From: Microcaldota archaeon
Lineage (GTDB): Archaea > Micrarchaeota > Micrarchaeia > Micrarchaeales > Micrarchaeaceae
Assembly: GCA_021817565.1 (NCBI GenBank)
Contig: JAKAUP010000007.1
Location: 216,497 to 271,473, forward strand
Reading direction: 5' to 3'
DNA length: 54,977 bases
Shown: positions 2,912 to 54,977 of the stretch, one piece after another
How the letters are laid out: every line of letters starts with the position of its first letter
Numbering within the stretch: the stretch's first letter is position 1
Position numbers and translations under genes: made by a program
Notes under the pieces: model-generated
What the model saw: only the letters and a program-made list of their open reading frames with translations
Database searches by the model: none
Told to the model about the DNA's origin: nothing

Positions 2912-3025
2912 GTTGCTGCAGAATCAGAGACCCATCTTAATCAAGAGCACATCTTTTCTTCGTCTAACTTAGGCAACATCTCTACCAACGTCTATGCATC
3001 CTTCATTCAAGTAATTCCTAAACAT
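2912..3025 (-). pseudogene. Decayed start of an ankyrin gene
   Basis: On the minus strand the ATG at 3025 opens MFRNYLNE, the exact start of the ankyrin genes near 51-54 kb, but the frame stops after 18 codons at 2969. Beyond the stop, another frame still reads KDVLLIKMG, matching the KVKTLVKIG stretch of the intact genes. The fragment sits one nucleotide after the stop of the ankyrin gene at 3027, the same spacing as in the large array. It is therefore a residue of a second, lost gene copy. Confidence 0.65.
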
Positions 3026-3026
3026 T

Positions 3027-3057
3027 CTAACACCTATCGGCGCTCAAAACATACTCC
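3027..3057 (-). repeat. Ankyrin-gene boundary element, copy 1 (diverged)
   Basis: It contains CTAACACCTATCGGCGCTC followed by an AAAACATACTCC stretch, a diverged copy of the boundary found at every junction of the 50.7-53.7 kb array. On the minus strand it encodes the last residues of the ankyrin protein and its TAG stop, and the next ATG follows one base later. Confidence 0.75.
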
Positions 3058-3734
3058 ATCTTTTTACGAATTTCCCCAAATCCCTTTCTCAGTTTAATCC
3101 GCCCAACCCCTCCTCTCTCTTCAATCCCGCGAATAATCTCCCCTCTTGCCATCTTATTATCTAAGGTAATGCGAAGAAGTTCCGCTATATTTTGATTTCT
3201 CGTTAATTCGCGCGCTGTTTTACCCTCATTATTTTTTAGCTTTATGTCAGCCCCATGCTCCACAAGAACCTTTACAATCCCCTCATGTCCGTTCCGTGCA
3301 GCCCACATCAACGCCGTTCGTCCATCATTACTCTGCAAGTTCACGTTAGCTCCCCGCCCAACAAGAATCTCCACAATCCTCTCATGTCCGTTCACTGCAG
3401 CCATCATCAACGCTGTCCATCCTTCCTTCCCCCTATTATCCACATCAGCCCCATGCTCCACAAGAACTTCCACAATCTCGTCACATCCATTCTCTGCAGC
3501 CCTCATCAACGCCGTCAGTCCATTCTCATTCTTCGATTCCACATCAGCCCCATGCTCAACAAGAAACCCCACAACTTCCATATGTCTATTCGCTGCAGCC
3601 AACATCAACGCCGCCCGTCCATACTTATCCTTCAAGTTCGCATCAGCCCCCATTCTGACCAAGATCTTCACTTTTGTGAGTTTTCCTGCCTTTGCTGCTT
3701 CTATGAGTCTTTCATTCAAGTAATTGCCAAACAC
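3027..3734 (-). CDS. Ankyrin-repeat protein (isolated copy)
   Basis: The protein has 235 residues if it starts at the GTG at 3734, which aligns with the ATG of the other copies (FRNYLNEKL versus here FGNYLNERL); a GTG nine bases earlier is also open. Five ankyrin repeats of 33 residues follow (consensus GWTALMRAAENGxKExVEVLVEHGADV), then a C-terminal cap GKTARELTRNQNIAELLR and a conserved tail of about 45 residues ending YVLSADRC. Ankyrin stacks bind proteins; no signal peptide is seen, so it is probably cytoplasmic. It shares start, tail and junction sequence with the four-gene array at 50.7-53.7 kb and is flanked by decayed copies on both sides. Repeats 2-4 differ more from each other than those of the array, suggesting an older copy. 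Confidence 0.85.
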   Translation of the reverse strand: MFGNYLNERLIEAAKAGKLTKVKILVRMGADANLKDKYGRAALMLAAANRHMEVVGFLVEHGADVESKNENGLTALMRAAENGCDEIVEVLVEHGADVDNRGKEGWTALMMAAVNGHERIVEILVGRGANVNLQSNDGRTALMWAARNGHEGIVKVLVEHGADIKLKNNEGKTARELTRNQNIAELLRITLDNKMARGEIIRGIEERGGVGRIKLRKGFGEIRKKMEYVLSADRC

Positions 3735-3737
3735 ACA

Positions 3738-3801
3738 TAACACCTACTGGCGCACAAACATCCTTTTTTATAAATTTCCAAGAATCCATTTCTCAGTCTA
3801 A
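3738..3801 (-). pseudogene. Decayed tail of an ankyrin gene with boundary element
   Basis: Just before the isolated ankyrin gene, the sequence TAACACCTACTGGCGC and then a degraded match to the tail-coding region (ending TCTCAGTCTAA against TCTCAGTTTAA in the array) can be aligned with the 3' end of the array genes. The reading frame is destroyed. It is what is left of a gene that once preceded the copy at 3027-3734. Confidence 0.65.
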
Positions 3802-6860: not shown

Positions 6861-6952
6861 AAGTAAGTCTTGCAGGAAGGATTAAAATATCTTGCAGCAC
6901 CACCCCACGCATTCCAAAAATAGGGAAAAATACCATGGGCGAGTTCAGAAAG

Positions 6953-6961
6953 CTTAAATAT
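6953..6961 (+). promoter_or_regulatory. TATA box deciding the start at 6983
   Basis: CTTAAATAT lies inside the longest possible reading frame (ATG at 6935) and about 26 nt before the next in-frame ATG at 6983. This supports leaderless transcription and moves the start to 6983. Confidence 0.6.
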
Positions 6962-6982
6962 CAAAAAAAAGAAACTATTACT

Positions 6983-8284
6983 ATGGGAGGCGAAGCAATC
7001 ATCGGCAGGTATACGTGGAACACAGCCCCGATGCCAAAAATGATGCGCAGGGAAGAGGAAGCATCCAAAACGGAGACTCCTGAACCAATAAGAAAGGCGT
7101 TCATCGCCGAGTTTTTTGCGGATCCGGGCAAGCAGGCAAAAAGTGAGTCGATTCTAAGTGATTATGAGAAGAAGGTAAAGTGGGCGATCTTTTACATAAG
7201 CAGCCAAATCGGGATGGAAAGGGATGAAAAGAGCGCCAGCACAGGAGTAAACAAAGTGGATGAAAAAAAGCTGTTCGAGGCAGCGAACAGGTTCATGAAT
7301 CACATACTAAGGGCGGAATACAAAGAGAGCTCGGATCTCTCATCACTCTCGCTCGAGAACCGGACAAACTGTTTTTCCTCATCATTGTTCCTATGGGATG
7401 TGTTCAGAAGGATGGGGAAGGAGACGCAGGGTATTCGCACGATTGACCATCTCATCCTGACTGGGGAAAATTATGCGATCGATTCGGTCAGCGAAGAAGC
7501 GGTATACCCGATAAAAATTATAGACAAAAAGTACCGGTTTTATGAGAAAGTCAACCTTGAAATGGACATACCATCAATGTCTTGCGTTAATCTGGGGATA
7601 CGCATTCTTCAACGCAAAGGAACAGACGAAGATGCATACAACAAAGCGAATCTCCTATTCATTGCAGCAGAAAAAAATGTAGCAGGCATGTCCAAATACA
7701 AGTCGGGAATCTGCAAGGCGGAATATCTAAAAAGGCAGGGAAGGGAAGCGGAGGCAAAAGATGTCATAAAGAAATTATTGGAGGAGGAGCCGGACAATCT
7801 AATTCTATGGGCCAGCTTAGTAGCGTACTCCGAGAAAAGTGAGCTGGAGGGGATACTTAAAAAGATAGAGTCAATAAGGTGGGACAAAAGAAGGAAAGAG
7901 GATGCAGAAGTGCTCAAAGCAGACATACACAGGTATATGGGGGAAAACAAAAAGGCATCATGTATTTATATAAAGCTGCTAAGGAGAAACTCAAGAAATT
8001 CAGACGCATTGCTCGGGCTTGGAGACATAGCCGTGATATCAGGGAAAACCAAACTTGCGGTAAAAATTTTGAGGGATGCATACCGTAATGCTCCATACCA
8101 TAACAGTCTCTATTTAGACATAAGGGCAGGTGTTGAAAAAAGAATGGAGGAGATAAGAGATATGCAGAAGCTGAAAGAGGAGAGAAGAGGCAAGATAAAC
8201 AGGGCGGTAAGGCGGGCTATTCAAAGAATAAAAGGAACGGCAGCCCAGCTAATCAAGCATCGAATAAATGTGCAGGCAGAATAG
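6983..8284 (+). CDS. Cys-His-Asp (transglutaminase-like) domain plus TPR-like repeats, paralog A
   Basis: The protein has 433 residues from ATG 6983, chosen because a TATA box lies within the earlier alternative start. The N-terminal 200 residues contain NRTNCFSSSLFLWDVFRRMG, then IRTIDHLILTGENYAIDS. The spacing of Cys, His and Asp matches a transglutaminase/papain-like core (SirB1-like), where these three form a catalytic triad. The C-terminal half (about 230-430) is a series of helix pairs resembling TPRs (AEYLKRQGREAEAKDVIKKL; ALLGLGDIAVISGKTKLAVK), and the last 35 residues are very basic. It lies directly upstream of a paralog with the same plan. No signal peptide. The catalytic role is inferred from motif spacing only. 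Confidence 0.6.
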   Translation: MGGEAIIGRYTWNTAPMPKMMRREEEASKTETPEPIRKAFIAEFFADPGKQAKSESILSDYEKKVKWAIFYISSQIGMERDEKSASTGVNKVDEKKLFEAANRFMNHILRAEYKESSDLSSLSLENRTNCFSSSLFLWDVFRRMGKETQGIRTIDHLILTGENYAIDSVSEEAVYPIKIIDKKYRFYEKVNLEMDIPSMSCVNLGIRILQRKGTDEDAYNKANLLFIAAEKNVAGMSKYKSGICKAEYLKRQGREAEAKDVIKKLLEEEPDNLILWASLVAYSEKSELEGILKKIESIRWDKRRKEDAEVLKADIHRYMGENKKASCIYIKLLRRNSRNSDALLGLGDIAVISGKTKLAVKILRDAYRNAPYHNSLYLDIRAGVEKRMEEIRDMQKLKEERRGKINRAVRRAIQRIKGTAAQLIKHRINVQAE

Positions 8285-8308
8285 CTGTGATTCAAAACAA
8301 GAGAAAAA

Positions 8309-9514
8309 ATGGTGGATATGGAGAAACGGGTGGAAAAGGGGCACGGAAGCGAACAGCTCCATGTAAGCACCGCGCTCAGAACCAGGGAAGCATGGGAAGT
8401 AGAGGGTATGCCGGAATACATCCGGAAAATACTTCTAGCGGAGTTTTTCGCCTTCCCGGAGTATAACCAAAACAGAAAGCACATAGCGGAAACGTACGAA
8501 AACCGCGTAAAGGGGTTCACGGATTACATATGCAATTTTTGGGAGATAAAGGAGGAGGAGAAAGGCGATGCCGAAGCATGGAGGAAGAGGGTAGCGGAGA
8601 TTCCAGAAGAGGCGCTCTTTATGCAGCTATGCACCTTTGTCTATACCGAACTTGAACATGCCAATACATCCAATGTTACTCTATCGCGCTCAGTAATGGA
8701 AAACAAGCAGAACTGCTTTACACTGTCAACCTTTGCATGGGACGTGCTGCACAGAATGGGCAAGGAGACAACCTGTGCCATAACGAGAAACCACGCGTTC
8801 TTGGTCGGAGACGAATATGTATTGGATATCGCAATCGGGGTGTATCCACATCCCCTAATAGATAAGTACTATGGAGAGTACGAAATCGTGCGAAATATGG
8901 AGCGCAACATACCATCAATCGCATCAAGAAATATAGCACTGATATACGGATCACTTACCCCGAATGTGGATCATAGTAAGATGGAAGCGCTTGCCCGCGC
9001 CGCATTGGAAACGTCGCAGGGCATATCAGATTATGTGCCAACATCAATCATGGCGCATGCGCTTCATGAAGAGGGGAATACACACGAGGCAAAGGAAGTG
9101 CTCAAGACATTGCTAAGGAAAGAGCCAGGTAGGCTTGAGGCATGGTACGACCTTTATAAAATCTCCGAAGAAAAGCACGAACTTAAAGAAATATTAAGGA
9201 ACATCGATTCGGTAGGGACTGGGAACCGGAGGGACAGGGAAAACGCAGAGGCGCTTCGGGCGATTACGCTGCTTAAAATGGGACATAAGTTAAGGGCGAA
9301 AAGGGCGTTCAAAAGGCTATGCGAACAGAACGGGAAGAATGCAGATGCATTATTCTGGATGGCTGTCATGGAAAATGGCGCAGGGAGGCAGAACAGAGCG
9401 CAAAAACTGTTAAAAGAGGCGAACAGAGCAGCAGAAGAGTGGGACAGCATATACATAAAAATAGAAGAATACAGCGCAACCCTCATGGAAGAGATATCAA
9501 GGAAGATGCAGTAA
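8309..9514 (+). CDS. Cys-His-Asp (transglutaminase-like) domain plus TPR-like repeats, paralog B
   Basis: This 401-residue paralog of the upstream gene has the same order of parts: an opening segment YIRKILLAEFFAFPEYNQNR parallel to AFIAEFFADPG in paralog A, then NKQNCFTLSTFAWDVLHRMG, NHAFLVGDEYVLDIAIG with Cys, His and Asp in triad order, then TPR-like helices (MAHALHEEGNTHEAKEVLKT; ALFWMAVMENGAGRQNRAQK). The GDEYVLDIA segment is closer to classic transglutaminase cores than in paralog A. The 24-nt spacing to the upstream stop points to one operon. Divergence between the paralogs suggests different partners or substrates. Confidence 0.6.
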   Translation: MVDMEKRVEKGHGSEQLHVSTALRTREAWEVEGMPEYIRKILLAEFFAFPEYNQNRKHIAETYENRVKGFTDYICNFWEIKEEEKGDAEAWRKRVAEIPEEALFMQLCTFVYTELEHANTSNVTLSRSVMENKQNCFTLSTFAWDVLHRMGKETTCAITRNHAFLVGDEYVLDIAIGVYPHPLIDKYYGEYEIVRNMERNIPSIASRNIALIYGSLTPNVDHSKMEALARAALETSQGISDYVPTSIMAHALHEEGNTHEAKEVLKTLLRKEPGRLEAWYDLYKISEEKHELKEILRNIDSVGTGNRRDRENAEALRAITLLKMGHKLRAKRAFKRLCEQNGKNADALFWMAVMENGAGRQNRAQKLLKEANRAAEEWDSIYIKIEEYSATLMEEISRKMQ

Positions 9515-46889: not shown

Positions 46890-47630
46890 ATGGAAGGCCA
46901 TCTTAAGCATATCGACCAGCTCTCAGGCATGATAACCAGAGAGCAGGCAGAGGCCTTATCAAAAGACGAAAACGAGAAAGCGGAGCTCGACGTCAAACGT
47001 ATACTTTCGCTCTCTAGCCCAACAGGACAGATACACAATCTATCGGTATCCGATTCGATATACAGGATTTTTAATCAGACGGTAAGGCACGGCGCAAAGC
47101 GTTCGCAGAAGCACAGGTTAATGGTAATGGGGGCGGAAGGATGCGCAGTGAAGCTTATCCTGAACGGAAAGATATCGGAAGAGGTGGATAGGCAGGGAAT
47201 AATACACGGGGATTCTATAAGAATAACAAACCTTATATTTGACATGGATAGTCAGACGCTGTACAGCACTGTCTTTTCAGAATTGAGACTAAACGAGCGT
47301 GCCTTGCCAGATCCATATAACGAAAACCTATTTGAAGGCAGTATAACTGAGATAATACGCGGAAGCGGTGGCGAGCGGCTTTCCACCGCAGCAGAGCTGA
47401 GAGCCCTCGGCAAAAATGGCATCGAGGCTGAGATACTACTTTCCGGTTCATCCGCAGAGGCCGCGTCATCCGCCTCCAAAGGCGACAGGATAATAATCGA
47501 GTTTTTTGGCGGACGCCCATCGGAAGCTGGAAAATGGATATTCGGAAATTCAGACTCGCGAGTGCTCATTCTGCCCGGTAATACTTCTTTCCGAAGTCGG
47601 AGTACTCCTTCAGTTCCTCGTCAGTTGTAG
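46890..47630 (+). CDS. Possible OB-fold nucleic-acid-binding protein (RPA/SSB-like)
   Basis: The protein has 246 residues from ATG 46890. The N-terminal helical region is followed by two beta segments with OB-fold character: RLMVMGAEGCAVKLILNGKI then GIIHGDSIRITNLIFDMD (about 90-140), and IEAEILLSGSSAEAASSASK then GDRIIIEFFGG (about 190-225). The strand-Gly-strand then GDxIxIxN order is as in RPA-type single-stranded DNA-binding proteins. I do not see zinc cysteines. The last 65 bp overlap the convergent AAA gene, and the final residues (SFRSRSTPSVPRQL) look like poor coding, set by that overlap. Assignment is tentative. Confidence 0.45.
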   Translation: MEGHLKHIDQLSGMITREQAEALSKDENEKAELDVKRILSLSSPTGQIHNLSVSDSIYRIFNQTVRHGAKRSQKHRLMVMGAEGCAVKLILNGKISEEVDRQGIIHGDSIRITNLIFDMDSQTLYSTVFSELRLNERALPDPYNENLFEGSITEIIRGSGGERLSTAAELRALGKNGIEAEILLSGSSAEAASSASKGDRIIIEFFGGRPSEAGKWIFGNSDSRVLILPGNTSFRSRSTPSVPRQL

Positions 47631-50298
47631 CCGGCTTTATCGCCTTTATCGAATCTTCCACCATCTGCTGCGTCACATTCTGGTTCTGTTCCCCATGCAT
47701 CCTGCCCCTCAGCGCCTTCTTTTTTGCGGAGTTGCAGGCAGCATATATCTCTGCGCCAGTGTAACCACCGCTCATATCTGCGAGCTTGTCGAAATTTATG
47801 CTGTCAATCGGCGCGTCTCTGAGGAACCTTATAAACATGAGCTTCCTAGTGGGCCTTTTAGGCAGTCCGACATATATCAGCTTGTCAAACCTTCCTGGCC
47901 TTAGCAGTGCAGGATCTAGCGCGTCCGGGTTGTTTGTAGTCGCTACCACCATGACGCCCGACATCCCGCGCATACCGTCCATCTGCTTAAGGAACTCCGA
48001 TATTATCTCCCTAGATATATCCTTTCCTACCTCCTTCCTGCTTCCCACAAAACCGTCAATCTCGTCTATGAAAAGTATTGCTGGTTTGTTCTCATTCGCC
48101 CTGTAGAAGTACTCCTTTATGATGCCTGGGGCATCCTCAACGCCAGCCCCTAAAACCTCTACGCTATCAAGCTCAATCATTGTAACTCCTTCCACGCTTT
48201 TGCTTATGTTCCTCATCATCATCGTCTTTCCGGTTCCCGGCGGCCCATATATCAATATCCCATTCGTGCCCTTTACGTCATAGCTCTTGGCGAGCTCAGG
48301 CCTTGCCAGCACCTCTATCGAATCCGTAACGGTCTTCTTGAAGTCCTCATAACCCACAATCATATCCATGCTCACTTTAGTAGTCTCGCTTTCAGCCATC
48401 ACATTGTGTAACCTCTCAAAGTCGTTCTTGAACTTCGTATACTCATCTATCTGCACGAGCCTTGTGGATGGTTTTGTGGACTTTATCGCCCTCACAATGT
48501 CGGCGTTTGTTACCTTGAGAAGCGTATGCTTCTCCACCGCCTCCCTCGCTACTGTCTGCGAGGTTGCCTCGCATAGGTTTCTTATGTCCGCAGCGCTGAA
48601 CCTTTCTGATAGATCTGCCAGCTTCTCTATATCAATATCCTTTGTAACGGGCAGTTTTGAGAGATACATCTTGAATATCTTCATTCGTGTGCTTTTGTCT
48701 GGCAGCGGCACATATATCGACCTGTCGAATCTGCCAGACCTTAAGAGAGCAGGGTCAAGCAGGTTCGGCTTGTTCGTAGCCCCCACAACTATAACCCTGT
48801 CTAACTTCTGGAATCCGTCAAGCTCCTCAAGCAGCTGCGTAAGCACGTGCTTATGCACCTCGTCTCCCATGTCCCTCGTAGTGCCAATGGCATCTATCTC
48901 ATCTATGAATAGTATGCAGGGGGAGTTCTTCTTCGCTACTGTAAAAACCTCAGCCAGCTTCTTCTCCGATTCCCCGGAAAAGGCAGATATAAGGTTCGGC
49001 GCGGCTATCCTGTAGAATCCGAAATGTATCTCGTTTGCTAGTGCCCTCATCATCATGGTCTTTCCGTTTCCGGGAGGTCCGAACAGCAATACCCCCTTTA
49101 CCGGCTTTATTCCGTATTTTCTTGATACTCCCTTTTCCTCTATGGGACCTATGATCGAGCGCATCATCTCCTTCTTTACGTCATCATATCCCGCGATGTC
49201 ATCAAAAGTCTCGTTTGTGCCTTCCACCTGAAGGTCCTCAAATGCCTCGCCAAACTTCATTCTTATGTCGCGCTTTTTCACCTCAAGCGCCTTGAACACG
49301 TCGAAATTGTAGAGTTCGAGTATGTATATGCCGATAGGTGCTATAAGGAAGCTGAGCAGCGCTATCTCACCCGTGCCCCTTATCAGGCTCGAAGTCGAGA
49401 CCCCTACAAAGAAGACCGGATACACGATGCCCGCCAGGCTTGCTTTTACCGCCCTATACTTCGACCGTTCCGAGACACCAATATATTCTATCAGGAAAGT
49501 CAAACCCACAACAAGCAGCATCTCTGCAATGTATAAAGGCTGCTGGAGAATCCCGTAGCCCAGGAGTATGAAGATGTTTGATATATTCCCAAGCAGTTTC
49601 TGGCTTAAGAAGACCTTCGCTGCGTTCGAGGTCGCGCCCCCTAGGAGCGATAATGTGGGTCTCGTGCCCCTCACAAGCGTGTAATTAAGAGAACTCCCTA
49701 TTCCGGTCGCGCCAAGCCTGCCCAAGCTCTTCGTTGTGCTGTACAGTATATATGAGTTGTTTTGTATCCCCATGCTGGAGGTAAGCGCAATAATGCTTAG
49801 GAATACGACCACGACAACGATTGCGCTTCTCTTGAAGCCAAGGATGAGGGGGGTCAATATCAGGAATGGTATGAACAGTACTCTCCCCAATGCCGAAAAG
49901 CTGAGTGCTATGAGCGTATAGCCTATGATAAGGCTCCTGTAATGCATATACCCCAATATCATCGCTGCAGTAAAGACAAACGCGTAAACCCAGGCAATTC
50001 CGGGAGATTGGTACATAAGCGGGGGGAAGGTAAGTGCAGCAAGTATGATAAGCCCAAGAAAGGGGTGCTTCATTGAGGCGATGAAGAGAAGTACGATTAG
50101 GACTATGCCTATCAGCCAGGGGTAGTATGGAAGGCCGACAAGCACTGATAAGAAGGCGATTGTTATTATTACGGCATCGATGAAGCGCCAATCCGAGACT
50201 ATACTCTGCAAAGCGTCGTTAAGATTGTAAAGAAGGACAGGAAGGCCGATTGATCTCTGACCCATGCCTGCCGCTTTTCCTGCGCTTTCCCCAGCCAT
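47566..50298 (-). CDS. Membrane-embedded double-AAA ATPase (Cdc48/VAT-like)
   Basis: The 910-residue protein has about 10 transmembrane helices in residues 35-330, in place of the substrate-binding N-domain of Cdc48/VAT. Two AAA+ modules follow: the first with Walker A FGPPGNGKT (near 405), Walker B ILFIDEIDAIG and arginine-finger region LLRSGRFDRSIYVPLPDK, and the second with YGPPGTGKT (near 683), ILFIDEIDGFV and LLRPGRFDKLIYVGLPKR. There is no protease domain and no HExxH, so it is not FtsH. It may pull proteins out of the membrane. A TATA-like TTTATAAATT lies about 30 nt before the ATG. Confidence 0.85.
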   Translation of the reverse strand: MAGESAGKAAGMGQRSIGLPVLLYNLNDALQSIVSDWRFIDAVIITIAFLSVLVGLPYYPWLIGIVLIVLLFIASMKHPFLGLIILAALTFPPLMYQSPGIAWVYAFVFTAAMILGYMHYRSLIIGYTLIALSFSALGRVLFIPFLILTPLILGFKRSAIVVVVVFLSIIALTSSMGIQNNSYILYSTTKSLGRLGATGIGSSLNYTLVRGTRPTLSLLGGATSNAAKVFLSQKLLGNISNIFILLGYGILQQPLYIAEMLLVVGLTFLIEYIGVSERSKYRAVKASLAGIVYPVFFVGVSTSSLIRGTGEIALLSFLIAPIGIYILELYNFDVFKALEVKKRDIRMKFGEAFEDLQVEGTNETFDDIAGYDDVKKEMMRSIIGPIEEKGVSRKYGIKPVKGVLLFGPPGNGKTMMMRALANEIHFGFYRIAAPNLISAFSGESEKKLAEVFTVAKKNSPCILFIDEIDAIGTTRDMGDEVHKHVLTQLLEELDGFQKLDRVIVVGATNKPNLLDPALLRSGRFDRSIYVPLPDKSTRMKIFKMYLSKLPVTKDIDIEKLADLSERFSAADIRNLCEATSQTVAREAVEKHTLLKVTNADIVRAIKSTKPSTRLVQIDEYTKFKNDFERLHNVMAESETTKVSMDMIVGYEDFKKTVTDSIEVLARPELAKSYDVKGTNGILIYGPPGTGKTMMMRNISKSVEGVTMIELDSVEVLGAGVEDAPGIIKEYFYRANENKPAILFIDEIDGFVGSRKEVGKDISREIISEFLKQMDGMRGMSGVMVVATTNNPDALDPALLRPGRFDKLIYVGLPKRPTRKLMFIRFLRDAPIDSINFDKLADMSGGYTGAEIYAACNSAKKKALRGRMHGEQNQNVTQQMVEDSIKAIKPATTDEELKEYSDFGKKYYRAE

Positions 50299-50375: not shown

Positions 50376-50397
50376 TGTTATCTAAAAAATATCTATG

Positions 50398-50492
50398 CCC
50401 CTTGTAGCTCAATGGTAGAGCGACCGGCTGTAGCCTGATGTTCCTTTTGGGAAGAAACCGGTAGGTTGGGTGTTCAAATCACTCCAAGGGGA
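50398..50492 (+). tRNA. tRNA-Tyr (anticodon GUA) with a 23-nt intron
   Basis: Acceptor CCCCTTG/CAAGGGG with discriminator A (C1-G72, the identity pair of archaeal tRNA-Tyr). D arm GCTC/GAGC, anticodon stem ACCGG/CCGGT with loop CTGTAGA once the intron is removed, anticodon GTA at 50430-50432, T arm GGGTG/CACTC with loop TTCAAAT. The intron lies at the canonical 37/38 site, about 50434-50456; its borders could shift by a base or two. Excision would need the archaeal splicing endonuclease. Confidence 0.93.
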
Positions 50493-50494
50493 AG

Positions 50495-50504
50495 GTTTAA
50501 ATCC
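50495..50504 (+). promoter_or_regulatory. TATA box of tRNA-Asp
   Basis: GTTTAAATCC begins three bases after tRNA-Tyr and about 30 nt before tRNA-Asp, so the two tRNAs can be made from separate transcripts. Confidence 0.55.
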
Positions 50505-50530
50505 CCCAGAACCAATGAGAATAAGAATAT

Positions 50531-50602
50531 GCCTTGGTGGTGTAACGGCTAGCATACAACCCTGTCACGGTTGCGATTCGGGTTCGATTCCCGGCCAAGG
50601 CG
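50531..50602 (+). tRNA. tRNA-Asp (anticodon GUC)
   Basis: 72-nt cloverleaf: acceptor GCCTTGG/CCAAGGC with discriminator G (the Asp identity base), anticodon stem CAACC/GGTTG around CTGTCAC (GTC at 50564-50566), T arm CGGG/CCCG with loop TTCGATT. No intron, CCA not encoded. Confidence 0.95.
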
Positions 50603-50658
50603 TTCCAAATGTGCGTTAAATTTATGGAGAATAAAAGCAGAATTAATTGTCACTACAC

Positions 50659-50688
50659 CTAACACCTACTGGCGCTTAAAACATATCC
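50659..50688 (-). repeat. Ankyrin-gene boundary element, array copy D end
   Basis: CTAACACCTACTGGCGCTTA followed by AAACATATCC; identical to the copies at 51451-51480, 52243-52272 and 53333-53362. This copy closes the array and lies just after the tRNA-Asp gene. Here the ankyrin frame stops inside it (TAA at 50676), because of an upstream frameshift. Confidence 0.9.
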
Positions 50689-51449
50689 CTCCTTTTTATG
50701 AATTCCCCAAATCCCTTTCTCAGTTTAACTCCTCGAACCCCTCCTCTCTCATCAATCTTGCAAATAATCTCCTCCGTTGCAGGTCGAAGAAGTTCCGCTA
50801 TATCCATATATCCCCCCGCTAATTCGCTCGCAGTCTTCCCCTCATTATCCTTTAGCGTTATGTCTGCTCCATGCTCAACAAGAAACTCCACGACACCTTT
50901 ACTTCCATTCATTGCAGCACACATCAACGCTGTCCATCCATCATTATCCTTCAAGTTCACATCAGCCCCATGCTCCACAAGAAACTCCACAACATCTTTT
51001 TGTCCATTCCCTGCAGCACTCATCAACGCCGTCCATCCATCATTTTTCTTCGAGTTCACATCCGCTCCGTGCTCAACAAGAACTCCTACAACATCTTTTC
51101 TTCCATTCCCTGCAGCCACCATCAACGCCGTATATCCATCATTATCCTTAAAGTTCACATCAGCTCCATGCTCCACAAGAACCTCTACAACATCTTTACG
51201 TCCATTCCATGCAGCCCGCATCAACGCCGTATCTCCATTACCATTATTCAAGCTCACATCAGCTCCATGCTCCAAAAGAAACTTCACAACATCTATATGT
51301 TCATGCGTTGCAGCCCAAATCAGAGCCGTCCATCCACCACTATCCTTCGAGTTCACATCAGCACCAATTTTAACCAAGGTCTTCACTTTTTTGAGTTCTC
51401 CTGCCCTTGCTGCTATTCCGAGTTTCTCATTCAAGTAATTCCTAAACAT
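50676..51449 (-). CDS. Ankyrin-repeat protein, array copy D (frameshifted tail)
   Basis: The 257-residue protein starts MFRNYLNEKLGIAARAGELK, followed by six ankyrin repeats (typical unit GWTALMSAAGNGQKDVVEFL then VEHGADVNLKDND), a cap GKTASELAGGYMDIAELLRP and a tail. The tail ends GFGEFIKRRDMF because a base is missing against the other copies (GAATTCAT for GAAATTCAT), which shifts the frame and replaces the usual ending GYVLSASRC. It is the last gene of the VWA-ankyrin run. No signal peptide; a protein-binding role is expected. Confidence 0.85.
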   Translation of the reverse strand: MFRNYLNEKLGIAARAGELKKVKTLVKIGADVNSKDSGGWTALIWAATHEHIDVVKFLLEHGADVSLNNGNGDTALMRAAWNGRKDVVEVLVEHGADVNFKDNDGYTALMVAAGNGRKDVVGVLVEHGADVNSKKNDGWTALMSAAGNGQKDVVEFLVEHGADVNLKDNDGWTALMCAAMNGSKGVVEFLVEHGADITLKDNEGKTASELAGGYMDIAELLRPATEEIICKIDERGGVRGVKLRKGFGEFIKRRDMF

Positions 51450-51450
51450 T

Positions 51451-51480
51451 CTAACACCTACTGGCGCTTAAAACATATCC
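51451..51480 (-). repeat. Ankyrin-gene boundary element, copy C/D junction
   Basis: The identical 30-bp boundary between copies C and D. The usual tail frame is lost here, so the encoded stop of copy C comes earlier than the element's own TAG. Confidence 0.9.
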
Positions 51481-52241
51481 TACTTTTTATGAATCTCCCC
51501 AAATCCCTCTCTCAGTTTAACCCCCCGAATTCCTCCTATCTCATCAATCCTGCGAATAATCTCCTCCGTTGCAGGTCGAAGAAGTTCCGCTATATCCATA
51601 CCTCCCTTCGCTAGTTCGCGCGCAGTTTTCCCCTCATTATCTTTTAGCGTTATGTCTGCTCCATGCTCCACAAGAACCTCCACAACATCTTTACGTCCAT
51701 TCCTTGCAGCCCACATCAACGCCGTATGTCCATCATTATCCTTAAAGTTCACATCAGCCCCATGCTCAACAAGAAACTCCACAATCTTCGGATGTCCCAT
51801 CCCTGCAGCCCGCATCAACGCAGTCCATCCATAACGATTCTTAAAGTTCACATCAACCCCGTGCTCCACAAGAACCCCCACAACATCTTTACGTCCATTC
51901 TCTGCAGCCACCATCAACGCCGTACATTCATCACTATCCTTGAAGTTCACATCAGCCCCATGCTCAACAAGAACTCCCACAACATCTTTACTTCCATTCC
52001 GTACAGTCCACATCAACGCCGTACATCCACGATTACTCTGCAGGTTCACATCAGCCCCATGCTCAACAAGAAACTCCACAATTTCTTTATTTCCATTAAT
52101 TGCAGCCCGCATCAACGCCGTCCATCCATTACTATCCTTCGAGTTCACATCCGCCCCACTTTTAACCAAGGACTCAACATTTGTGAGTTTTCCTTCTTCT
52201 GCTGCTTCTATGAGTTTCTCATTCAAGTAATTCCTAAACAT
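51480..52241 (-). CDS. Ankyrin-repeat protein, array copy C (truncated tail)
   Basis: The 253-residue protein has the same start (MFRNYLNEKL), six ankyrin repeats, cap GKTARELAKGGMDIAELLRP and tail, but it stops at KLREGFGEIHKK: where the other copies read AAAAAGGAGGGATATG, this one has AAAAAGTAGGATATG, giving TAG. The last ten residues present in copy B are thus missing. Copy C starts 1 nt after the stop of copy B. Confidence 0.85.
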   Translation of the reverse strand: MFRNYLNEKLIEAAEEGKLTNVESLVKSGADVNSKDSNGWTALMRAAINGNKEIVEFLVEHGADVNLQSNRGCTALMWTVRNGSKDVVGVLVEHGADVNFKDSDECTALMVAAENGRKDVVGVLVEHGVDVNFKNRYGWTALMRAAGMGHPKIVEFLVEHGADVNFKDNDGHTALMWAARNGRKDVVEVLVEHGADITLKDNEGKTARELAKGGMDIAELLRPATEEIIRRIDEIGGIRGVKLREGFGEIHKK

Positions 52242-52242
52242 C

Positions 52243-52272
52243 CTAACACCTACTGGCGCTTAAAACATATCC
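52243..52272 (-). repeat. Ankyrin-gene boundary element, copy B/C junction
   Basis: Identical 30-bp element encoding the end of copy B (VLSASRC and TAG); the ATG of copy C follows after one base. Confidence 0.9.
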
Positions 52273-53331
52273 CTCCTTTTTATGAATTTTCGCAAATCCC
52301 TCTCTCAGTTTAACCCCCCGAACCCCCCCTCTCTTATCAATCTTGCAAATAATATCCTCCGTTACAGGTTGAAGAAGTTCCGCTATATCCCTATATCTCT
52401 CCGCTAGTTCGCGCACAGTTTTCCCCTCATTATCTTTTAGCGTTATGTCTGCTCCATGCTCCACAAGGAACTTCACAACATCTTTACGTTCATTCCCTGC
52501 AGCCAACATCAACGCAGTCCATCCACAACCATCCTTCAAGTCCACATCAGCCCCATGCTCAACAAGAAACTCCACAACATCTTTATCTCCATTCCTTGCA
52601 GCCACCATCAACGCCGTCCCTCCATTATTATTCTTCAAGTCCACATCAGCCCCATGCTCCACAAGAAACTCAACAACATCTTTACTTCCATTCAATGCAG
52701 CCACCATCAACGCCGTCCCTCCATCATTTTTCTTCGAGTTCACATCCGCTCCGTGCTCAACAAGAACCTCCACAACGTCTTTTCGTCCATTCTCTGCAGC
52801 CAACATCAACGCCGTACATTCATAAATATTCTTAAAGTTCACATCAGCCCCATTCTCCACAAGAAACTCCACAACGTCTTTTCGTCCACTCTCTGCAGCC
52901 CACATCAACGCCGTACATTCAGAACGATTCTTCGAGTCCACATCAGCCCCATTCTCCACAAGAACCTCCACAATATCTTTTCGTCCATCCCCTGCAGCCC
53001 ACATCAACGCCGTACATTCAGAACGATCCTTCAAGTCCACATCAGCCCCATTCTCCACAAGAACCTCCACAATATCTTTTCGTCCATTCCTTGCAGCCCA
53101 CATCAACGCCGTCCATCCATCACTATTCTTCAAGTTCACATCAGCCCCATGCTCCACAAGAACCCCAACAGTCTCCGGATGTCCCACCCGTGCAGCCCAC
53201 ATCAACTCCGTCCATCCAACACTATCCTTCAAGTTCACATCCGCCCCACTTTTAACCAATGTCTTCGCTTTTGTGAGTTCTCCTGCCTTTGCTGCCATTC
53301 TGAGTTTCTTATTCAAGTAATTCCTAAACAT
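52243..53331 (-). CDS. Ankyrin-repeat protein, array copy B (largest)
   Basis: The 362-residue protein has nine full 33-residue ankyrin repeats, more than the others, plus a capping half repeat (GKTVRELAERYRDIAELLQP) and the full conserved tail (GGVRGVKLREGFAKIHKKEG then YVLSASRC). Adjacent repeats 3-5 share unusual ECTALMWAA and VLVENGADVD wording, so they look freshly duplicated within the gene. Variable residues cluster at the beta-turn tips and inner helix positions that contact partners. It is the intact reference for the family and starts one base after the stop of copy A. Confidence 0.88.
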   Translation of the reverse strand: MFRNYLNKKLRMAAKAGELTKAKTLVKSGADVNLKDSVGWTELMWAARVGHPETVGVLVEHGADVNLKNSDGWTALMWAARNGRKDIVEVLVENGADVDLKDRSECTALMWAAGDGRKDIVEVLVENGADVDSKNRSECTALMWAAESGRKDVVEFLVENGADVNFKNIYECTALMLAAENGRKDVVEVLVEHGADVNSKKNDGGTALMVAALNGSKDVVEFLVEHGADVDLKNNNGGTALMVAARNGDKDVVEFLVEHGADVDLKDGCGWTALMLAAGNERKDVVKFLVEHGADITLKDNEGKTVRELAERYRDIAELLQPVTEDIICKIDKRGGVRGVKLREGFAKIHKKEGYVLSASRC

Positions 53332-53332
53332 T

Positions 53333-53362
53333 CTAACACCTACTGGCGCTTAAAACATATCC
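53333..53362 (-). repeat. Ankyrin-gene boundary element, copy A/B junction
   Basis: Identical 30-bp element containing the stop of copy A; the ATG of copy B follows after one base. Confidence 0.9.
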
Positions 53363-53698
53363 CTCCTTTTTATGAATTTTCGCAAATCCCTCTCTCAGTT
53401 TAACCCCCCGAACCCCTCCTCTCCCATCAATCACGCGAATAATACCCTCCTTTACAGGTCGAAGAAGTTCCACTATATCCCTATCTCCCTCCGTTTTTAG
53501 CGTTATGTCTGCTCCATGCTCCACAAGAAACTCCACAACGTCTTTATTTCCATTCCCTGCAGCCACCATCAACGCCGTCCCTCCATCACTATCCTTCAAG
53601 TTCACATCAGCCCCAATTTTAACCAAGGTCTCCGCTTTTGTGAGTTCTCCTGCCTTTGCTGCTATTTCGAGTTTCTCATTCAAGTAATTCCTAAACAT
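53333..53698 (-). CDS. Ankyrin-repeat protein, array copy A (short)
   Basis: The protein has 121 residues from ATG 53698 (a GTG three codons earlier is also open). It keeps the start (MFRNYLNEKLEIAAKAGELT) and the full tail (YVLSASRC) but only about two ankyrin repeats; the cap is also shortened (KTEGDRDIVELLRP). This is what an unequal crossover between repeats would leave. Two repeats are generally too few for a stable stack, so it may fold only with a partner, or be a recombination product without function. First ankyrin gene after the VWA gene, 40 nt away. Confidence 0.8.
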   Translation of the reverse strand: MFRNYLNEKLEIAAKAGELTKAETLVKIGADVNLKDSDGGTALMVAAGNGNKDVVEFLVEHGADITLKTEGDRDIVELLRPVKEGIIRVIDGRGGVRGVKLREGFAKIHKKEGYVLSASRC

Positions 53699-53700
53699 AC

Positions 53701-53730
53701 CTAACACCTACTGGCGCTTGAAACATATCC
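53701..53730 (-). repeat. Ankyrin-gene boundary element, upstream end of the array
   Basis: One-base variant (CGCTTGAAACATATCC) of the 30-bp element, lying between the VWA stop codon and the first ankyrin gene. Its presence here, where no ankyrin gene ends, shows that the first ankyrin gene was once preceded by another copy, or that the element itself was the insertion or duplication joint. Confidence 0.88.
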
Positions 53731-53737
53731 TTCCTTC

Positions 53738-54977
53738 CTACCCTTTCCGCATCAATTGCGCTAGCTCGTTATTAACTATCTTTATAATTTCCTTCTCCAT
53801 TATCCGTCCAGCGTCACTTATATTTGAGACATTGAAATAAGATGTAGACGGCGCAAATATGTTTTGAGCCGTCTGATTCCCATCTCCTATAAATATAGTA
53901 TGTACTGGCATCCCTCGTAGCCTTGCCATAAGTTCCGATAGCTCCTGATTAGTTTCATTTGGACTATCTGGACACCCATCTGTTATTATAAATAACGTAG
54001 TCTTTTTCCAGTCTTCATTGTAAAGTCTTTCAGACATATACTTTAAAGCTGCATGCGTGGGGGTACCGCCAACCGCGTCTAAATTCATCAGATCTTTCCT
54101 ATCAAACCGGAATACATGTGCCTGGGATCTTCCATAAAAACCGAACATCTCCATGCTTATTATGCTGGACCGTGCCACACTGTCATATAAGCTACCAACA
54201 ACATATTTTGTTTTGTCTATCTGATTCTGCATAGAACCAGATAAATCTAAAAGTATCACAATTTTTGATCCAGAATTTCTTTTGTGCTTTAAGTAAGGTC
54301 TTTCAAGTAAACTGCGATCCCCGGTTATTTTAGCATGTATTATGCGTGCGGTATCGATTCTCTCTCCATTGTCCGAATTGCTCCATATCCTAGACGGCTT
54401 ATTCATTCCCCTTTCAAGCTTTTCAAGCGCTGTTCTTATTTTGTGGTTTGGGACTATTCGCGGTCCTCCGTATGGTGTTCCTCCCTCGCCATAACTGGTA
54501 ATTACTATTTCATTAGTTGTGCTACCATCTCTTTTTTGAATATTTTTCAGCTCCGCGGCAGACATCTTTCCCTTATTAAACTCCGCTATGTCTGCCCTGT
54601 TACTCATAATTATATATGGTATTACCTTCTCGAATTCTTTATCAGATATCATTCTTTTAAGCATCTCTGTTATATTCTTACTTCCCTCTTTTATCACATT
54701 GTTTCTGCTTTCGATGTCAGATAAATCTAACTCAGTATCCTCAGTATTTGCTTTACTGCTTCCTTCCCTGTGTTGTCCAGTTGCACTTTCATCTAGCTCA
54801 AGATTCTTTACGGCCTTGTCAAGCATAGACTTTAATCGTTGTGCTATCGTACCAGTACCTCCCTCATCAGTACCAGTACCTTCCTCATCCGTACTAGTAC
54901 CTCCCCCATTCGTACCTGTACCCTCCTCATCCGTACCAGTACCTTCCTCATCCGTACTAGTACCTCCCCCATTCGTA
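53738..54977 (-). CDS. VWA-domain protein with Thr/Gly/Asp/Glu repeat linker (start beyond window)
   Basis: The frame is open to the window edge, so at least 413 residues are present; the ATG at 54826 is internal or an alternative start. The visible N-terminal part is a low-complexity linker built of seven-residue units such as TGTDEEG and TSTDEEG. An acidic helical segment follows, then a VWA domain with a complete MIDAS metal site: DLSGS (DxSxS), GGTPTHAAL (Thr) and ITDGCPD (Asp). The GGTPTxxAL form and an acidic region ahead of the domain recall CobT/CoxE-type VWA proteins that work with MoxR-class AAA ATPases; such a partner may lie just outside the window. It is followed at once by four ankyrin genes. 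Confidence 0.82.
   Translation of the reverse strand, partial: TNGGGTSTDEEGTGTDEEGTGTNGGGTSTDEEGTGTDEGGTGTIAQRLKSMLDKAVKNLELDESATGQHREGSSKANTEDTELDLSDIESRNNVIKEGSKNITEMLKRMISDKEFEKVIPYIIMSNRADIAEFNKGKMSAAELKNIQKRDGSTTNEIVITSYGEGGTPYGGPRIVPNHKIRTALEKLERGMNKPSRIWSNSDNGERIDTARIIHAKITGDRSLLERPYLKHKRNSGSKIVILLDLSGSMQNQIDKTKYVVGSLYDSVARSSIISMEMFGFYGRSQAHVFRFDRKDLMNLDAVGGTPTHAALKYMSERLYNEDWKKTTLFIITDGCPDSPNETNQELSELMARLRGMPVHTIFIGDGNQTAQNIFAPSTSYFNVSNISDAGRIMEKEIIKIVNNELAQLMRKG
54871..54977 (-). repeat. 63-bp tandem repeat in the VWA linker
   Basis: The stretch beginning at 54871 recurs at 54934 with a period of 63 bp, itself three 21-bp subunits, coding for T-[DN]-[EG]-[EG]-G-T-[GS] heptads. It continues past the window edge, so the copy number is unknown. 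Length variation by slippage would change the linker between an unseen N-terminal part and the VWA domain. Confidence 0.85.

Follow-up and report, generated by a model that had tools for sequence, protein, structure and literature searches.

A MoxR-VWA gene pair with ankyrin gene arrays of variable size recurs in Micrarchaeota, with diversifying selection on the ankyrin binding face in one genome

The closest described counterparts of the gene module treated here are the MoxR-vWA ternary conflict systems (PMC7159879, published in 2020; Kaur et al. 2021, PMC8195603). These are built on an adjacent core pair, a MoxR AAA+ ATPase and a vWA protein with the aspartates of a metal ion-dependent adhesion site (MIDAS), to which a third component is added; they are sporadically distributed and carry variable, diversifying binding or effector modules. 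The module lies at one end of a stretch of 54,977 nucleotides from a Microcaldota archaeon (contig JAKAUP010000007.1), below called the window, and is alike in all these respects. Its third component, however, is an array of ankyrin genes instead of VMAP, iSTAND, FtsH or a beta-propeller, none of which gave a match above cut-off in the MoxR, VWA or ankyrin proteins. Its enzymatic-looking domain is an N-terminal HExxH domain, whereas the effector of the ternary systems is C-terminal to the vWA domain, and its hosts are unicellular DPANN archaea, not multicellular bacteria. The 2020 paper (PMC7159879) nowhere uses the word 'ankyrin'. The module is best read as analogous to, but distinct from, the bacterial systems.

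The genome of origin (G000; 775 kb in 8 contigs, 97% complete) has the module on two contigs. The end of the window coincides exactly with the end of contig C2. That contig stops within a coding tandem repeat, (DEEGTGT/NGGGTST)n (54848..54977, minus strand), and the window therefore holds only part of the VWA gene; the repeat is an assembly break point at which both C2 and C4 end. The 3' part of the VWA gene (53738..54977, minus strand) is an open reading frame (ORF) that is still open at the contig end; it encodes an acidic linker and then a VWA domain with MIDAS motifs (DLSGS, GGTPT, ITDG), matched above cut-off by the Pfam model VWA_CoxE (E=1.7e-9). An earlier note, made from the letters alone, had described a head-to-tail row of four ankyrin genes behind the VWA gene in window 50659-54977, and the minus-strand ORFs bear this out. 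ANK1 (53333..53698, with an alternative GTG start at 53707) has an N-cap, about 1-2 ankyrin repeats and the constant tail. ANK2 (52243..53331; ORF and domain match) has about nine repeats, ANK3 (51480..52241; ORF and AlphaFold2 model) about six, and ANK4 (50676..51449; ORF and block alignment) also about six, with the end of its tail in a shifted frame. Pfam identified ankyrin repeats in the array genes with E values down to 4e-85. The gaps along VWA-ANK1-ANK2-ANK3-ANK4 are 39 nt (30 nt from the GTG start), 1 nt, 1 nt and 30 nt. Repeat counts of about 2, 9, 6 and 6, as previously given, were recovered, as were the common start (MFRNYLN.KL) and tail (GGVRGVKLR.GF..I.KK) of the genes. The AlphaFold2 model of ANK3 (predicted local distance difference test, pLDDT, 88.9) gives a confident ankyrin stack, then a short helix and, at the C-terminus, a disordered tail.

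Searching G000 with the MoxR protein of a related genome (G018) gave a single MoxR-type AAA gene, on contig C4 (L020:11902-13341), and the gene that had been predicted upstream of the VWA gene was in this way located. Directly behind it is the 5' part of a VWA-type gene (L020:13372-14664, the end of C4) with the motifs HELAH and EDSRIE, running into (DEEGTGT)n, the same repeat that begins the VWA fragment of the window. The join of C4 to C2 is supported because G001, a genome of the same genus, keeps both flanks contiguous without the module. On a single contig it has serS and a gene for an AAA protein of 910 aa, then a TnpB gene and two small paralogues, and then the genes for a PfkB kinase and a P-type ATPase; nothing else lies between the two flanks, and MoxR, VWA and ankyrin genes are absent there. 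The module is therefore an insertion or deletion at a site with insertion sequence (IS) activity. Juxtaposed IS-element ends border the array (50396..50603, no strand assigned) and correspond to the sequences on either side of the G001 TnpB gene; G001 has a complete IS element with TnpB at the same locus (L078:10987-12547). The gene for the 910-aa AAA protein (window 47566-50298) was rejected as a part of the system, since all four genomes tested, the module-less G001 among them, have relatives of it. An origin from phage or plasmid was unsupported, as no relative of the VWA protein was found in IMG/VR, among the INPHARED phages or among the PLSDB plasmids.

The ATPase gave AAA_5 matches above cut-off, its nearest solved relatives are midasin, CbbQ, NorQ and CobS, and judged by its sequence it is a member of the AAA_5/MoxR clade. 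Such an ATPase beside a VWA protein is also the common feature of CobS-CobT, CbbQ-CbbO, NorQ-NorD, RavA-ViaA and midasin. Unlike those pairs, the present one was not seen alongside chelatase, Rubisco or respiratory enzyme genes, and it has the ankyrin array added; NCBIfam scores for the CobS/CobT equivalogs were far below cut-off (TIGR01650, 36 bits against 558; TIGR02442, 27 against 779). In the G000 MoxR gene (L020:11902-13341), VIEEL replaces the usual DE of Walker B, and this change of D to E may alter the ATPase activity. The VWA protein has an HExxH...EDxRxE region in its N-terminal part and a VWA domain with intact MIDAS in its C-terminal part. Across the four VWA proteins aligned, HExxH, EDxRxE and MIDAS do not vary, and the G000 protein has HELAH and EDSRIE. 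From HExxH and the downstream acidic ligand motif, the N-terminal domain is predicted to be zincin-like, or protease-like.

A profile of the VWA protein matched 5 of 301 Micrarchaeota genomes, from four genera of one family, and ankyrin genes lie beside the VWA gene in four of the five. Thus VWA-ankyrin neighbours, which the earlier note had proposed to look for in related archaea, occur in three of the four other genomes having this VWA family, and the length of the array, also put forward for comparison, varies from 3 to 38 ankyrin genes. The longest is that of Ca. Micrarchaeota YP4.bin88 (G009, JAKAWW010000001.1), where MoxR-VWA is accompanied by 38 ankyrin genes across 34 kb, 15 upstream and 23 downstream. 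Neighbouring genes overlap there by exactly 11 bp at 32 junctions, most of the total, which implies translational coupling. The MoxR gene of G009 (L016:6211-8652) has an in-frame tandem duplication and encodes two AAA modules. In G018 the pair is found with three ankyrin genes, and in G103, adjoining a TnpB gene, the order is MoxR-ANK-VWA-ANK-ANK. A MoxR gene adjoins an ankyrin gene at a contig edge in G017, which lacks this VWA. The VWA proteins are 56% identical between G018 and G009, about 33-34% between G103 or G104 and G018, and 41% between G000 and either G009 or G018. Chance adjacency of MoxR-VWA and ankyrin genes was rejected, since it recurs in four divergent lineages.

The four ankyrin genes of the window are delimited in cassette fashion by a 30-bp block, GGATATGTTTTAAGCGCCAGTAGGTGTTAG, present in five copies with 97-100% identity where none is expected by chance. 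Each unit of the array runs from the MFRNYLN start through the GGVRGVKLR.GF..I.KK tail to the closing block, and the sequence beyond the array edges is unrelated. All copies are on the minus strand: copy 1, with one mismatch, between VWA and ANK1 (53701..53730), copy 2 at 53333..53362, copy 3 at 52243..52272, copy 4 at 51451..51480, which holds the Shine-Dalgarno sequence AGGTG of ANK4, and copy 5 at the array end after ANK4 (50659..50688). The coordinate 50659, at which the earlier note had begun the locus, is the exact edge of the last copy. The block likely holds the Shine-Dalgarno sequence (AGGTG) of the following gene in general. An apparent C-terminal extension, EGYVLSASRC, is seen in ANK1 and ANK2 but not in ANK3 and ANK4, since it comes in part from translation of the following gene's ribosome-binding site. 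It is the 30-bp block read in frame, ANK3 ending earlier and ANK4 being frame-shifted, and the constant tail proper therefore ends near HKK. The constant 30-bp blocks and the short overlaps would make duplication easier, and ankyrin genes are widespread in the order, 75 of 162 genomes having matches. Both fit a coincidental or selfish expansion, in which unequal crossing-over would multiply ankyrin genes at whatever site they have reached and their adjacency to MoxR-VWA would be without function. Against this stand the adjacency in four lineages with a VWA identity of only 33-56%, the ankyrin gene lying between MoxR and VWA in G103 and the purifying selection on core positions described below, and such an expansion is considered very improbable.

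Variability was compared across 163 repeats of G009 and 21 repeats of G000. It was highest at positions 2, 3, 5, 13, 14 and 33, which we take to be those randomised in designed ankyrin repeat proteins (DARPins), and in addition at positions 10, 16 and 26. Variability biased towards the binding face is typical of ankyrin families in general, and codons were compared because a variability peak alone is common to them. The ratio of nonsynonymous to synonymous differences (pN/pS) was counted on codons in nearest-neighbour repeat pairs with six positions set a priori, six being the number randomised per repeat in DARPin libraries (PMC9611651). Subject to the caveats that repeat pairs are few in G000, that gene conversion may play a part and that the counting method is simple, the pN/pS of the G000 array was 2.41 (bootstrap 95% 1.92-3.59) at the six face positions versus 0.68 elsewhere. 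Random sets of six positions equalled the face value in 0.1% of draws (p=0.001), and the Fisher test of face versus rest gave p=1e-5 on 28.75 synonymous differences. A pN/pS of about 2.4 therefore indicates positive, diversifying selection on the binding face of the array in the window; the ankyrin core positions are conserved, under purifying selection. The description of the array as a diversifying binding module is thereby backed at the level of single positions. A hypervariable binding face on a constant scaffold is shared with diversity-generating retroelements, from which the arrays differ by evolving through duplication and substitution without a reverse transcriptase; retroelement-driven diversity was rejected, as no reverse transcriptase (PF00078) was found in G000, G009, G018 or G103.

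The explanation favoured here, to which about even chances are given, is a recurrent operon of a MoxR-clade ATPase, an HExxH/VWA protein and an expandable ankyrin array whose products are interchangeable target receptors. It is the simplest model to make use of every part. The face of the ankyrin repeats would bind a target protein, while the flexible, lineage-constant C-terminal tail would dock physically on the MoxR-VWA machine. In MoxR partners, the MIDAS domains bind peptides in extended form, after which MoxR remodels the bound protein (PMC7159879), and the constant tail, being disordered, could be such a peptide. The machine would then remodel the target, or cleave it if the HExxH site is active. 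New receptors would arise by tandem duplication between the constant ends of the units and by gain and loss of repeats of 33 residues, and the duplicated receptors would diverge at face residues under positive selection, possibly against fast-changing partners such as viruses, mobile elements or proteins of a host cell. A face that picks the target and a separate end that docks on a machine are known from Fem1-type ankyrin receptors of Cullin ligases, and DARPins likewise combine a target-picking face with a constant end; here, by contrast, the array is natural and archaeal and the machine is MoxR-VWA, not a ubiquitin ligase.

Several results weigh against this proposal. No ankyrin match was found in the genome of G104, which is 87% complete and has its VWA gene at a contig edge. 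For the N-terminal HExxH domain there was no Pfam match at E<=1, and its single-sequence AlphaFold2 model (pLDDT 40) was unusable. At the face positions of G009, pN/pS was 1.03 (0.88-1.18) versus 0.46 elsewhere; that face is at least unconstrained, either relaxed or mildly diversifying. G048, from a sister family, has ankyrin arrays (L044:6136-12453, L045 and L046), many of whose genes end in another constant tail, VxEIIxxLExDlr, and no MoxR or VWA gene was found in the stretches examined, so that arrays can exist without the machine. Against a profile of the G009 tails, one tail from G018 and two from G155 scored beyond all shuffles, and the tails of G000 and G103 had no detectable match. A single tail motif for all lineages was accordingly rejected by the comparison with shuffles, holding for some tails of G009, G018 and G155. 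Such a pattern would be expected if tails diverge together with their VWA protein, although this is not proof.

The ankyrin proteins might also be clients, for which MoxR-VWA would be a dedicated folding or maturation chaperone, the long repeat-rich proteins acting elsewhere, for example inside an attached host cell or in an intracellular scaffold. Maturation of specific protein complexes is a common role of MoxR-VWA pairs (PMC7159879), the array of G009 is large, and host dependence is predicted for most DPANN archaea (PMC12892359). Ankyrin proteins normally fold unaided, however, and the ORFs open with a capping ankyrin helix and have no signal-like N-terminus; G017 and many other Micrarchaeota moreover carry ankyrin genes without this VWA. 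The client role is therefore regarded as unlikely.

In a strict defence or conflict system, forming an archaeal branch of the MoxR-vWA ternary systems, the ankyrins would sense proteins of viruses or mobile elements and MoxR-VWA would switch on a lethal or proteolytic response. The sporadic distribution (5 of 301 genomes), the presence or absence of the module at a site where the sister genome G001 has TnpB, the TnpB gene adjoining the G103 operon, the diversifying selection and the resemblance in operation to those ternary systems that have a variable component all agree with this. Yet no known effector domain was found in the module, nor a match above cut-off to VMAP, iSTAND or beta-propeller, and PADLOC returned only generic ankyrin and weak AAA matches. 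Nor is the layout that of polymorphic toxins, as the C-terminus is constant and the variable part is the internal ankyrin core. Defence in this strict sense is judged improbable.

A wider form of the receptor model is offered tentatively, as possible though rather doubtful: an archaeal repertoire at the protein level, in which up to 38 co-transcribed ankyrin receptors per genome would feed one shared MoxR-VWA-metallopeptidase machine and be renewed by cassette duplication and selection on the face, as an inherited system of DPANN archaea resembling innate immunity or serving host interaction. Archaeal ankyrin genes have been reported as rare, present in 11% of 133 archaeal strains, and their function as unstudied (PMC3932732); here they recur in an operon together with a remodelling ATPase, and their binding face shows diversifying selection. 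Were the receptor model true, it would be a compact way for symbiotic archaea with small genomes to run many recognisers on one machine, it would extend MoxR-vWA ternary systems beyond multicellular bacteria, and the arrays would be natural DARPin-like libraries. Which rapidly changing partner drives selection on the ankyrin face has become a testable question. Among papers joining MoxR, ankyrin, vWA and archaea, only PMC8195603 was found, its ankyrins being those of animal TRADD-N proteins, in a search mostly of papers open without subscription; a Micrarchaeota genomics paper of 2025 has no mention of ankyrin or MoxR. A MoxR-VWA-ankyrin repertoire thus looks undescribed in the literature searched, which consisted mostly of papers open without subscription.

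Ankyrin arrays with constant tails look like a wider theme in Micrarchaeota. In G155, of the same genus as G018, three ankyrin genes close to the edge of a contig (L042:6050-8995) have G009/G018-type tails; no VWA or MoxR was found in this genome, which is 71% complete. Two adjacent ankyrin genes with another similar tail, ALxxLkRxIARxxR, are present in G033 (L047:7404-9409).

The window itself holds a second, decayed ankyrin array (3001..3801, minus strand), about 47 kb from the main one. Its one gene (3027-3743), whose tail is related to that of the main array, stands behind the remnant of an ankyrin tail (3744-3801) and ahead of the first part of a further unit (3001-3026). At 6935-9514 in the window, two adjacent genes of about 400-450 aa resemble tandem paralogues, both having a stretch of the type NRTNCFSSSLF/NKQNCFTLSTF.

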